DNA of 64,000 bases from Clostridia bacterium. Its GTDB lineage: Bacteria > Bacillota > Clostridia > CAKSNL01 > HGM11501. Shown one piece after another: positions 228 through 63,442 of this stretch. Each line of letters opens with the position of its first letter. The stretch's first letter is position 1. Location: positions 1-64,000 of the forward strand of contig JAFQQJ010000016.1 of the NCBI GenBank assembly GCA_017411325.1, read 5' to 3'. A program made the translations under genes and the position numbers. The notes under the pieces are model-generated. The model was given only the letters and a program-made list of their open reading frames with translations, made no database searches and had not been told where the DNA came from.

Positions 228-1046
228 TTATTCATTTTCGCAATTGCAGTCCGTCTGAACCTCGCACTTGTTGGGAGGGAAAAATTCCTCAATGGGGAAG
301 GATAAATCCCTGAACATATCGCAGGGGTCGTGGGGAGAGCCTTCCTCGTTATGGCAGGCAGAATCGGGAATGCAGAAGCTTGTTGCGGGAACGGAAAGCT
401 GCACCTCACGCTCCAGGCGTACCAGCATGAAAAGCCCCAAGGTTACATAGATGTTTTTGCCTTCAACCGTATCGCTGATTGCACCCTCGAAAACCCTCTG
501 TACACAGTCGGGAACGGCAGCTACATCGGTGTCGCAGGTGGGAATGGCGTCACCGTTTAATACGAGAGTATCAAGAACTATGGGATCAACCACTTCGACT
601 ACCGCATTTGGCATATTGGTCTTTTTCCAGGTGGAGAAATCAAAGCTGTCCTCTTTATACTTGGACTGGAAAATTTTCGCCTCTCCGGTGGAACCGAAAA
701 GTACAATCTTTTTATCAAACATTGCAAGACCGTCAACGGCTACGGGACGGCGAAGTCCTGTGTAGGCGTTTAATTCCACACGGAAGTAAAATTTTAAGTT
801 TACCGTGTAATAGCCCTTGTGAAAGGGAAGGGAATCCACATCGGAATAAATCCAGATAACCTCCGCCTTTTCGGCGGTGATTTTGCTTGCGGAATCAATA
901 ATTCCCTGACTTTCGGGACTTATGTAAACCCTTAAGTTTTCAAGACATTCCTTGGCTCTGCAGGAATCGTAAATCTGAGATGCATTTATGCAGACATTTT
1001 CTGTGCACGAAGAACATTCTGTTGCAGATAAAATTTTATCGTCCAT
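228..1046 (-). CDS. Conserved clostridial protein of unknown function, cysteine-rich ends
   Basis: Encodes 272 residues starting at an ATG 5 bases after an AAAAGGAGGA ribosome binding site. The N-terminus has five cysteines in the first 35 residues (pattern CSSC, then three single cysteines), and the C-terminus ends in a further cysteine-rich patch (CDMF, CEVQTDCNCE). The middle looks like a beta-rich soluble domain with a FDKKIVLFGS segment; there is no signal peptide or membrane segment. I recall closely similar proteins as widespread unnamed proteins of spore-forming Clostridia, but no reaction or partner is known to me. It is transcribed away from the T-box gene. The paired cysteine clusters could bind metal or be cross-linked in a spore layer; this is inference only. 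Confidence 0.75.
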   Translation of the reverse strand: MDDKILSATECSSCTENVCINASQIYDSCRAKECLENLRVYISPESQGIIDSASKITAEKAEVIWIYSDVDSLPFHKGYYTVNLKFYFRVELNAYTGLRRPVAVDGLAMFDKKIVLFGSTGEAKIFQSKYKEDSFDFSTWKKTNMPNAVVEVVDPIVLDTLVLNGDAIPTCDTDVAAVPDCVQRVFEGAISDTVEGKNIYVTLGLFMLVRLEREVQLSVPATSFCIPDSACHNEEGSPHDPCDMFRDLSFPIEEFFPPNKCEVQTDCNCENE

Positions 1047-1135: not shown

Positions 1136-1164
1136 TTGACAAATGAAAAATAGTGTGCTATAAT
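1136..1164 (+). promoter_or_regulatory. Sigma-A promoter of the T-box transcript
   Basis: TTGACA (1136-1141) and TATAAT (1159-1164) are exact consensus hexamers separated by 17 bp. The expected transcript start, near 1171, lies just before the first T-box stem. Confidence 0.85.
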
Positions 1165-1169
1165 TCAGA

Positions 1170-1427
1170 AAAATTAATAATAAAGACTGTGACGAAGACG
1201 GTCGTACATCTGAGTTTTCAGAGAGTCTGCGTAAGGTGCGAGCAGATAACAGGATGATACAAGGACCCATCACTTCCGAGTCGGAGGGCTGAATAAAAAG
1301 TAGGCTTCTCCCGAGAATGCTGCGTCAGTGCATAGGGCTTGTTGGAGCCTGAAGAGTGGTGCGAAAGCACAAATTGAGTGGTACCGCGGGTAATGTAACT
1401 CGTCTCAAGTATGAGACGGGTTTTTTT
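1170..1427 (+). promoter_or_regulatory. T-box riboswitch leader with terminator
   Basis: T-box leaders bind uncharged tRNA and allow read-through of a terminator when the cognate amino acid is scarce. The hallmarks are present in order: a Stem I with AGAGAG (1220-1225) and the GGTG element of the distal loop, the AGTAGG element (about 1299-1304), the T-box itself GAGTGGTACCGCGGG (1376-1390), and a terminator with stem CGTCTCA/TGAGACG (1401-1418) followed by seven T. The best specifier codon is ATC at 1269-1271 (isoleucine): it is followed by a purine and lies at the usual distance before CCGAG. CCC (proline) is the main alternative. The downstream gene is an acyl-CoA ligase, not a tRNA synthetase, which is unusual. 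Confidence 0.93.
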
Positions 1428-1488
1428 GTTTTTACTTAGCTTAAAATTGAAAATTTTCAATATATAAAAAATTTTATGAGGTGATTAC

Positions 1489-3744
1489 ATGAACAGCAAA
1501 TTAAAAGAAATTGCACTCCGTGTGAAGGAGCTTCGCGAAATTAAGGGCTACACTACAGCCGAAATGGCAAGCTTTGCGGACGTGACAGAGGCAACATACC
1601 TTTCCTTTGAAAAGGGAGAGTCGGATTTCGGGTTCACCTTTATTTATAAGTGCGCCCAGGCTTTCGGCGTAGAAATTAAGGACCTTTTAGAGGGTTCAAG
1701 CCCAATGCTTTCCTTATACAACTATGTGAAAAAGGGAGAGGGAATGCCCATCGAAAGAAAATCAGGCTTTTACTATCAGCATCTTGCACCCTCCTTCAAA
1801 AATAAAACGGCTGAGCCTTTCTTAGTTAAAATACCTTATATCGAGGGCGAAACCTCTTATTCCTCCCACGCAGGTCAGGAGCTTGACATCGTTGTATCGG
1901 GAAGACTTAAGATAACAATAAACGAACGTACGGAAATCTTAGAGCCCGGCGACAGCATTTACTATGACAGCAGTGCGCCCCACGCCCTTTCCGCAATGGA
2001 TAACGCGCCCTGCGAAATTTACGCAATTGTTATGGCGGGCGAGGAAAAGGCGGAAGCTGAGAAAAAGACCGTTACAGTAAGAAAGAGCACAGGCAAAACC
2101 GTGGCAGACGACTTTATTGACTGCGTAACAAATGAAGACGGCGTGCTTCAGAAGATAAGCTTCAAAAATGCGGATAAGTTCAACTTTGCATTTGACTGTG
2201 TTGATGCAATTGCTGATAAAACTCCCGACAAGACCGCTATGATGTGGGTGTCCGGCGACGGTAAGGACAGGCGCTTTACCTTCGGCGATATGAAGAAATA
2301 TTCCAATATGACAGCAAACTACTTTGAAAGCCTCGGAATAAAGAGGGGCGACACCGTAATGATCGTTCTTAAGCGTCATTATCAGTTCTGGTTTACAATG
2401 CTTGCCCTTCATAAAATCGGTGCGGTAACAATTCCCGCAACAAATCAGTTAGTTGAACACGACTTTGAATACCGCTATAAGGCGGCAGGTGTTGCGGCAG
2501 TTATCTGTACCGCTGACGGTGAGGTATCAGACCACGCGGCAAAGGCGGCAGAGGGCAGAAACATCACCAAAATTATGGTGGGCGGATGTAAGGACGGATG
2601 GCACGACTTCAACGCCGAAATGGAAAAATGCTCCGACGTTTATGAGCGCACGGAAAATTCACCCTGCGGCGACGATACAATGCTTATGCTCTTTACATCA
2701 GGTACAACGGGCTATCCCAGAATTGCGGCACACTCTTATAAGTATGCACTTGGACACTACATCACAGCTAAATACTGGCACAATGTAAATCCCGACGGAC
2801 TTCACTTTACCATTTCCGACACCGGTTGGGGTAAGGCTCTCTGGGGTAAGTTCTACGGTCAGTGGCTCTGCGAAGCAGGTGTATTCACCTATGACTTTGA
2901 CCGCTTCAAGTCAGAAGAAATTCTTCCCATGTTTGCAAAATACAACATCACAACCTTCTGTGCACCTCCCACAATGTACCGCTTCTTCATAAAGGAAGAT
3001 TTGTCAAAGTATGATTTGTCTTCCATCGAATATGCGACAACAGCAGGGGAGGCGTTAAATCCCGAGGTAAGCAACAAGTTCCGCGAGGCTACAGGTCTTA
3101 CCATTATGGAAGGCTTCGGTCAGACGGAAACAACCCTTGCAATCGGCAACCTTGTGGGCACACATCCGAAGCTTGGATCTATGGGACTTCCCAGCCCCCT
3201 TTACGATGTAACCCTTCTTGATGCGGACGGCAAGGAATGTGCACCCGGTGAAGCAGGTGAAATCTGTATCAGAACAAGTGAAGAAGTTCCCGCAGGACTC
3301 TTCAAGGGCTATTATCTTGATGAAGCTAAGACAAAGGAAGCTTGGCACGACGGCTACTATCACACCGGCGATCAGGCAACAAGGGACGAGGAAGGCTACT
3401 TCTTCTATGTGGGCAGAATCGACGACGTTATAAAGTCCTCCGGCTACAGAATCGGACCCTTCGAAATCGAAAGCGTAATCATGGAGCTTCCCTATGTTCT
3501 TGAATGTGCAATCACCGCAGTACCCGACGAAATTAGAGGTCAGATTGTAAAGGCTACAATCGTTTTAGTAAAGGGCAAGGAAGGCTCTGACGAACTTAAG
3601 AAGGAAATTCAGGAATATGTAAAGAAGAGAACCGCTCCTTACAAATATCCCAGAATCGTTGACTTCGTGGCAGAGCTTCCCAAAACCATCAGCGGTAAGG
3701 TAAGACGAGTAGAAATAAGAGAAAACGATAAAAACAGAAAATGA
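1489..3744 (+). CDS. XRE HTH-cupin-AMP-forming acyl-CoA ligase fusion
   Basis: A 751-residue protein with three parts: an XRE-type helix-turn-helix (about 7-63), a cupin (about 105-190, with SSHAGQELDIVVSG and PHALS ligand-type histidines), and a complete acyl-adenylate ligase (about 220-750). The ligase has the ATP loop LFTSGTTGYPR (about 400-411), YHTGD (about 623), the hinge region GRIDDVIKSSGYRIGPFEIE, and the C-terminal catalytic lysine in ISGKVRRVE (about 736). It should convert a carboxylic acid, ATP and CoA to acyl-CoA, AMP and pyrophosphate; the C-terminal half resembles short/medium-chain ligases. The start follows GAGGTGATTAC. Control is by the T-box upstream. With an isoleucine-type T-box, a branched-chain acid such as 2-methylbutyrate is an attractive but unproven substrate. 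The HTH and cupin may sense a ligand or DNA. Confidence 0.9.
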   Translation: MNSKLKEIALRVKELREIKGYTTAEMASFADVTEATYLSFEKGESDFGFTFIYKCAQAFGVEIKDLLEGSSPMLSLYNYVKKGEGMPIERKSGFYYQHLAPSFKNKTAEPFLVKIPYIEGETSYSSHAGQELDIVVSGRLKITINERTEILEPGDSIYYDSSAPHALSAMDNAPCEIYAIVMAGEEKAEAEKKTVTVRKSTGKTVADDFIDCVTNEDGVLQKISFKNADKFNFAFDCVDAIADKTPDKTAMMWVSGDGKDRRFTFGDMKKYSNMTANYFESLGIKRGDTVMIVLKRHYQFWFTMLALHKIGAVTIPATNQLVEHDFEYRYKAAGVAAVICTADGEVSDHAAKAAEGRNITKIMVGGCKDGWHDFNAEMEKCSDVYERTENSPCGDDTMLMLFTSGTTGYPRIAAHSYKYALGHYITAKYWHNVNPDGLHFTISDTGWGKALWGKFYGQWLCEAGVFTYDFDRFKSEEILPMFAKYNITTFCAPPTMYRFFIKEDLSKYDLSSIEYATTAGEALNPEVSNKFREATGLTIMEGFGQTETTLAIGNLVGTHPKLGSMGLPSPLYDVTLLDADGKECAPGEAGEICIRTSEEVPAGLFKGYYLDEAKTKEAWHDGYYHTGDQATRDEEGYFFYVGRIDDVIKSSGYRIGPFEIESVIMELPYVLECAITAVPDEIRGQIVKATIVLVKGKEGSDELKKEIQEYVKKRTAPYKYPRIVDFVAELPKTISGKVRRVEIRENDKNRK

Positions 3745-3750
3745 TATTTT

Positions 3751-3780
3751 GCGGCTGTGAAATTCACAGCCGCTTTTTCT
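3751..3780 (+). terminator. Terminator after the ligase gene
   Basis: A perfect 11-bp stem, GCGGCTGTGAA with TTCACAGCCGC around a single A, is followed by a T-rich run. It lies 6 bp after the stop codon. Confidence 0.9.
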
Positions 3781-63360: not shown

Positions 63361-63436
63361 ACATATGTTGTGCCCAGACGGTCGGCAAATAAAGTCATAC
63401 TCCCCGTGGTTACTCCACTTCCGTCAGTTATATGAC
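63361..63436 (-). promoter_or_regulatory. ZTP riboswitch (pfl motif) aptamer
   Basis: Read on the minus strand, the leader contains ACTGACGG, a small hairpin GTGG-AGTAA-CCAC followed by GGGGAGTATG, and then GCCGACCGTCTGGGCAC, which is the conserved 3' part (CCG..CTGGGCA) of the ZTP aptamer. Outer CATAT/ATATG arms close it. The class was first described as pfl RNA motif and senses ZMP/ZTP, the AICAR-derived signal of low 10-formyl-tetrahydrofolate. Control of pflA-pflB links formate production to folate one-carbon demand. Confidence 0.9.
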
Positions 63437-63442
63437 ATTCAT

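Follow-up and report, generated by a model that had tools for sequence, protein, structure and literature searches.

Branched-chain volatile acids have long been known as amino-acid precursors in rumen anaerobes. Isoleucine, valine, and leucine are also sources of lipid primers, and MbcS of Listeria provides acyl-CoA primers for branched-chain membrane lipids. PMC7356843 describes isoleucine and valine as being formed in the rumen from 2-methylbutyrate and isobutyrate, respectively. According to PMC10455477, the Macs enzyme of Methanosarcina acetivorans (structure 3ETC) prefers 2-methylbutyrate and adenylates C3-C8 acids. On the regulatory side, PMC2494555 reports that wherever experiments had verified a T-box of its survey, the specifier agreed with the established function, and this agreement supports inferring function from the specifier.

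Here, we analyze a T-box leader ahead of an acyl-CoA ligase gene in a 64,000-nucleotide stretch of a Clostridia bacterium genome (GCA_017411325.1, contig JAFQQJ010000016.1), hereafter the window. A preliminary description made from the letters of the window had proposed that the leader is a T-box with an isoleucine specifier, and that it controls a salvage pathway in which a short branched acid is activated and then reductively carboxylated.

A T-box leader precedes a single ligase gene

The features of the locus are, by position in the window:

1136-1164, forward strand: sigma-70-type promoter, TTGACA-N17-TATAAT with a TG extension
1180-1410, forward strand: T-box leader (RF00230 covariance model, cmscan; 85.5 bits, E 3e-19)
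1269-1271, forward strand: specifier codon AUC (Ile), from the specifier column of the covariance-model alignment
1379-1390, forward strand: T-box sequence UGGUACCGCGGG (sequence and covariance-model alignment)
1397-1422, forward strand: intrinsic terminator hairpin of 11 pairs followed by a T-run (-15 kcal/mol, z -5.4 versus shuffles)
1489-3744, forward strand: gene for a 751-aa XRE-HTH, cupin, and AMP-forming acyl-CoA ligase protein (Pfam)
2830-2832, forward strand: codon of the catalytic-domain residue Gly448, a position with Gly in Ile-type and Ala in Val-type ligases
3751-3773, forward strand: second intrinsic terminator, 3' of the gene

The leader is a canonical transcriptional T-box. 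It covers the RF00230 model in full length (positions 1-219 of 219) and has the complete feature set, i.e., the specifier codon, UGGN (UGGU at 1379-1382 on the forward strand), and the terminator. Both the T-box claim of the preliminary description and its reading of the specifier as ATC for isoleucine were thereby borne out, the latter by the covariance-model alignment. At 85.5 bits, the leader does not reach the Rfam gathering score of 93 and is therefore omitted from a default Rfam scan of the window; it was recovered by rescanning under an E-value threshold. Related ligase leaders at loci L084, L130, L191, L219, and L199 score 95-115 bits on RF00230, and others score lower. We read the gathering score as a strict threshold here and class the window leader as a real T-box on its remaining features. 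Over Stem I (1186-1296), plain minimum-energy folding gave a structure no more stable than shuffles (z 0.25), so the leader call depends on the covariance model and not on folding energy. The promoter matches the consensus at 12 of 12 positions; weaker sites in the same scan were about as frequent in shuffles as in the actual sequence. Between the leader and the terminator at 3751-3773, the ligase gene is the sole gene.

Other elements of the window were also recorded. By eye, a frame at the contig start (1-144) resembles the end of an IS3-type transposase. The divergent neighbor (228-1046, reverse strand) encodes 272 aa with no Pfam match, and a similar protein occupies the equivalent place in L019 (7551-8390). 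A ZTP riboswitch at 63365-63441 (reverse strand, 61.6 bits) is the only element in the default Rfam scan of the window.

Domains and nearest relatives of the ligase

Pfam assigned HTH_3 (aa 12-65), Cupin_2 (119-180), AMP-binding (241-609), and AMP-binding_C (659-737) domains to the 751-aa ligase. Its earlier identification as an acyl-CoA ligase was correct as to the AMP-binding domains and incomplete in that the HTH_XRE and Cupin_2 domains had been missed. The XRE-HTH and cupin region fused ahead of the ligase corresponds to positions 1489-2030 of the window. The HTH-cupin part is a separate upstream reading frame in three T-box-less paralogues (L017, L020, and L021). It is possible that the fusion provides a second, protein-level control of the ligase.

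The top NCBIfam profile for the window ligase was MbcS (NF047394), followed by profiles of acetate and fatty-acid ligases. Assignment to MbcS was rejected at 460 bits versus a cut-off of 850. The closest solved structure is 3ETC at 650 bits, with the next structure at 384, and the alignment spans the ligase half of the window protein (aa 228-749). The pocket Trp is kept as W430 in 125/125 Ile-type and 36/36 Val-type proteins, provided that the numbering is shifted by one residue so that W430 corresponds to Trp259. Judging from these sequence comparisons, the window ligase probably activates a short branched acid.

T-box ligases are shared among gut and rumen relatives

Ligase matches at E 1e-150 or better were present in 194 of 391 genomes of the class. 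Flanks were taken for part of these matches, best first, together with 80 named loci among the matches listed. The sampled loci belong mostly to metagenome-assembled gut and rumen Clostridia, Ruminococcus included. The sample holds 212 ligase copies, a few of them one gene recovered twice from different sources (4 pairs of identical proteins). Copies that include the N-terminus and have 250 bp or more of upstream sequence number 198. A pattern search among the matches listed placed a T-box motif at most 450 bp upstream of 166 of these 198 copies, which is no rate for the whole enzyme family because copies were picked by likeness to the window ligase. Three further T-box copies were recognized, one by cmscan (L072) and two by a variant motif (L093 and L154, pattern only). 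T-box ligases occur in at least 69 genomes from 22 coded families. A cultured carrier is Neglectibacter timonensis SN17, with an Ile-type T-box ligase in L176. The survey of homologous ligases called for by the preliminary description thus showed shared upstream T-boxes, with Ile or Val specifiers.

No cmscan T-box hit was found upstream of the orthologues at L079, L173, L194, and L205. One Ruminococcus clade has both states: L199 keeps a strong T-box (108 bits on RF00230), and L194, L205, L211, and their relatives are without one (by cmscan for L194 and L205 and by pattern for the rest). This is an apparent recent loss of the T-box.

Specifier and ligase clade correspond

Across the 165 ligase leaders that were aligned, the specifier columns hold AUC in 128 cases and GUA in 37, with no other codon; the columns were read without choosing a codon, and the aligner may favor agreement. 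Earlier calls by pattern had chosen ATC or GTA among several hits and were repeated codon-blind. The AUC/GUA pattern also holds for the 12 ligase leaders placed on the covariance model. On a ligase tree of 207 proteins, a single AUC/GUA label change suffices for the 161 rows labelled by specifier. All 36 GUA rows fall in one branch (support 100), together with three unlabelled rows.

Tandem ligases connect the two types to the predicted next step. In 15/15 adjacent tandem pairs among the matches listed, an AUC T-box and its ligase precede a GUA T-box and its ligase, with the gene for the alpha subunit of a VOR-type oxidoreductase (VORalpha) then following downstream on the same strand. The 15 loci include close relatives (L204/L220 and L209/L213), and L188 and L097 were excluded from the count for an unreadable leader or a truncated copy. 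This linkage of T-box ligases to the oxidoreductase in relatives favors the proposed pathway. L130 holds both ligase types in reverse order (GUA first) with a leucine unit between them, and no VOR was found in the L130 stretch examined.

A CbiA/ParA-type NTPase gene stands before VORalpha in L084 (7892-8566), L090, L096, and L191, as surveyed in four tandem loci with reading frames listed (Pfam for L084 only). A similar-looking gene lies ahead of VOR in the source genome, G000 (L034, 6600-7238).

Four alignment columns (50, 54, 106, and 448) were above the 85% rule in both specifier groups, and column 448 is the only one of them in the catalytic domain. Residue 448 is Gly in 125/125 Ile-type (AUC) and Ala in 36/36 Val-type (GUA) proteins, a match with the specifier that is a correlation found by looking. 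Rows called T-box-less have Gly in 27 of 39 cases, Ala in 10, and Met in 2, so the residue is no mark of T-box control. In E. coli acetyl-CoA synthetase (Acs), the residue aligned with position 448 is V310, which we take to be an acetate-pocket residue. The order 2-methylbutyrate, isobutyrate, acetate would be consistent with a bulkier side chain accompanying a shorter acid.

Gene complement of the source genome

The G000 assembly is a draft with 97.8% completeness and 5.1% contamination. Of its 8 T-box matches, the window leader and the ileS leader have the AUC specifier in common. The others precede a LeuA-like gene (CUC), thrS, pheST, asnB, trpB, and an SSS symporter, with all gene names except the LeuA-like gene assigned by eye from translations. 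The T-box before the SSS-family symporter (L002, 1501-1760) has a specifier that looks like UAC (Tyr). Of the 38 tRNA matches, 27 loci were scanned, and tRNA-Ile did not turn up in them.

Neither ilvC nor ilvD was found in G000 or three other members of its family (0/4 for ilvD), with the control positive in 14/14 genomes for each gene. An acetolactate synthase large subunit is above cut-off on contig C24 of G000 (L261, 8213-10388) and has an apparent small-subunit gene beside it. The retained pair implies that the classical route is only partly lost or that its other genes were missed in the draft. The check for missing ilv genes was favorable for ilvC and ilvD and mixed overall, given the acetolactate synthase pair.

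VorB (NF005507) scored 573 bits in G000, where beta and gamma subunits are also present, and 540 bits in operon L084, both relative to a cut-off of 399; NF005507 is a subfamily model, and the VOR substrate is thus predicted only. An expected 2-oxoisovalerate-type ferredoxin oxidoreductase was matched by these VorB-type genes in G000, with the mixed outcome that they are on a different contig from the window ligase. G000 further contains an indolepyruvate oxidoreductase alpha subunit above cut-off, two PF01063 aminotransferases not resolved to BCAT, and a second HTH-cupin and ligase pair, which is T-box-less, encoded in two separate reading frames, and has 44% identity.

Distribution of ilvC

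A first count placed ilvC in 9/68 T-box-ligase genomes versus 198/323 others, with a p-value of 1e-13 that ignores kinship and treats every unexamined genome as T-box-less. Among the 194 ligase-bearing genomes, ilvC was present in 9/69 T-box-ligase genomes versus 99/125 others. Flanks were taken from 21 of these 125, one of which (G048) was without upstream sequence, and 16 of the 21 have ilvC. Stratifying by family gave an odds ratio of 0.11 (10 strata, p = 5e-5) when counting 104 unfetched genomes as T-box-less, and 0.15 (5 strata, p = 0.048) with fetched genomes only. Many of the genomes are drafts, and part of the ilvC absences may therefore be gaps. Joint evolution of T-box control and ilvC loss was unsupported, as the ligase tree offered 2-3 independent pairs and the result was not significant. 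T-box presence changes only three times on this tree, which leaves independent pairs without power.

A leucine unit with its own T-box

The CUC T-box of G000 precedes the LeuA-like gene and an ~820-aa fusion protein (L022). The fusion protein (L022, 4227-6704) joins a xylose-isomerase-like TIM barrel (AP_endonuc_2) to an acyl-CoA ligase. Another 14 loci have whole or partial copies of the fusion ligase in one stretch with an Ile T-box ligase, where the leucine-unit loci L051 and L156 may be one genome. The fusion ligase of this unit is a candidate isovalerate ligase. In L130, Val, Leu, and Ile T-boxes fall within ~8 kb. Five distinct Leu leaders have GAACUC, and those of L204 and L220 read CUC by eye. 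Overall, the fusion ligase was seen, whole or partial, in L022 and 15 other loci, including L020, where it is beside VOR genes and a T-box-less ligase.

The LeuA-like protein was located in L022 (6688-8076, on contig C41 of G000), L130 (6242-7630), and L204. Two presumably catalytic stretches of E. coli LeuA, DTTLRDGEQ and HTHDDLG, are missing from it, and the LeuA_dimer domain is kept. The protein may be a leucine-binding pseudo-enzyme.

Proposed pathway and alternatives

We propose that the AUC T-box would sense uncharged tRNA-Ile, such that isoleucine shortage would lead to antitermination and transcription of the ligase. From scavenged 2-methylbutyrate, the ligase would then form 2-methylbutyryl-CoA, to which a VorB-type ferredoxin oxidoreductase would add CO2 reductively, yielding 2-oxo-3-methylvalerate, and an aminotransferase would complete isoleucine. 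The same route would lead from isobutyrate to valine in relatives that have a duplicated ligase under a GUA T-box. We put a probability of about 80% on this reading, in which isoleucine is made from 2-methylbutyrate by reductive carboxylation under tRNA sensing and a sister ligase serves valine synthesis from isobutyrate. Within it, we infer switching by tRNA-Ile, 2-methylbutyrate as the substrate, and the carboxylating direction of VOR. The specifier, the homologues, the failure to find ilvC and ilvD in G000, the VorB-type genes, and the 2-methylbutyrate preference of the closest solved structure all favor the salvage pathway with a tRNA-sensing switch that the preliminary description put forward. 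That account is supported, although it had noticed neither the valine paralogue nor the leucine unit.

The alternative that survives best, although we consider it unlikely, is that the ligases supply branched acyl-CoA primers for membrane lipids and are under T-box control since amino-acid shortage also halts primer supply from isoleucine, valine, and leucine. MbcS being the best NCBIfam profile, though under cut-off, points in this direction, as does the fact that the same three amino acids feed lipid primers. However, VORalpha follows the tandem T-box ligases in 15/15 cases, and an oxidative VOR would be wasteful in amino-acid starvation. The absence of detectable ilvC from 60/69 T-box-ligase genomes also argues against a role confined to lipids.

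Less credible still is a catabolic, energy-yielding role, wherein VOR would oxidize 2-oxoacids and the ligase would act on the products or in reverse. VOR-type oxidoreductases are generally known to be reversible in principle, and the XRE-cupin domains hint at additional ligand-responsive control, but T-boxes generally activate their genes in response to scarcity of the cognate amino acid, and pyrophosphate hydrolysis drives AMP-forming ligases forward. Equally improbable is a real T-box on a ligase for some other acid (e.g., propionate or a longer or aromatic acid) with an indirect isoleucine link, for which the C3-C8 range of the 3ETC enzyme (PMC10455477) and the acetate and fatty-acid profiles ranking after MbcS leave room, but against which stand the substitution at 448 and the correspondence, in both directions, between specifier and ligase clade.

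Returning to isoleucine synthesis from scavenged 2-methylbutyrate, we find a broader version somewhat better than an even bet. Many gut and rumen Clostridia would possess a tRNA-sensed regulon that turns scavenged branched acids into isoleucine, valine, and leucine, with Ile (AUC), Val (GUA), and Leu (CUC) T-boxes each governing their own ligase and with VorB-type carboxylation. The specifier and residue 448 (Gly to Ala, narrowing the pocket to suit a shorter acid) would have changed together after one duplication, and LeuA would have been left without its active site while keeping its leucine-binding domain.

Comparison with known systems

The window leader has its architecture, specifier logic, UGGN, and terminator in common with RF00230 T-boxes of aminoacyl-tRNA synthetase, amino-acid biosynthesis, and transport genes. 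It differs from known T-boxes in the gene under it, an acyl-CoA ligase. The term "acyl-CoA" was absent from the main text of the T-box papers searched for it, and none of the open-licence papers listed in a literature search, judged mostly from their listings, connected an acyl-CoA ligase with T-box control. The pairing may be new. If the proposed pathway is correct, T-box control would extend to a salvage pathway fed by the acids of other organisms.

Rumen reductive carboxylation (Allison and co-workers, cited in PMC7356843) shares with our proposal the conversions of 2-methylbutyrate to isoleucine and of isobutyrate to valine, and the available part of PMC7356843 describes neither a gene set nor tRNA-sensing control. 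The loci reported here provide candidate genes for the use of branched acids in the rumen, in which the T-box specifier would serve as a built-in label predicting the acid of each ligase. The Ile-type and Val-type ligases also offer a natural enzyme pair with a candidate specificity residue.

Among described enzymes, MbcS (NF047394) is the best profile yet under its cut-off, and the window ligase differs in having the HTH-cupin extension and a T-box. Macs (3ETC) is an archaeal chain of 580 residues that matches only the ligase half of the window protein, and the pocket Trp is common to both.
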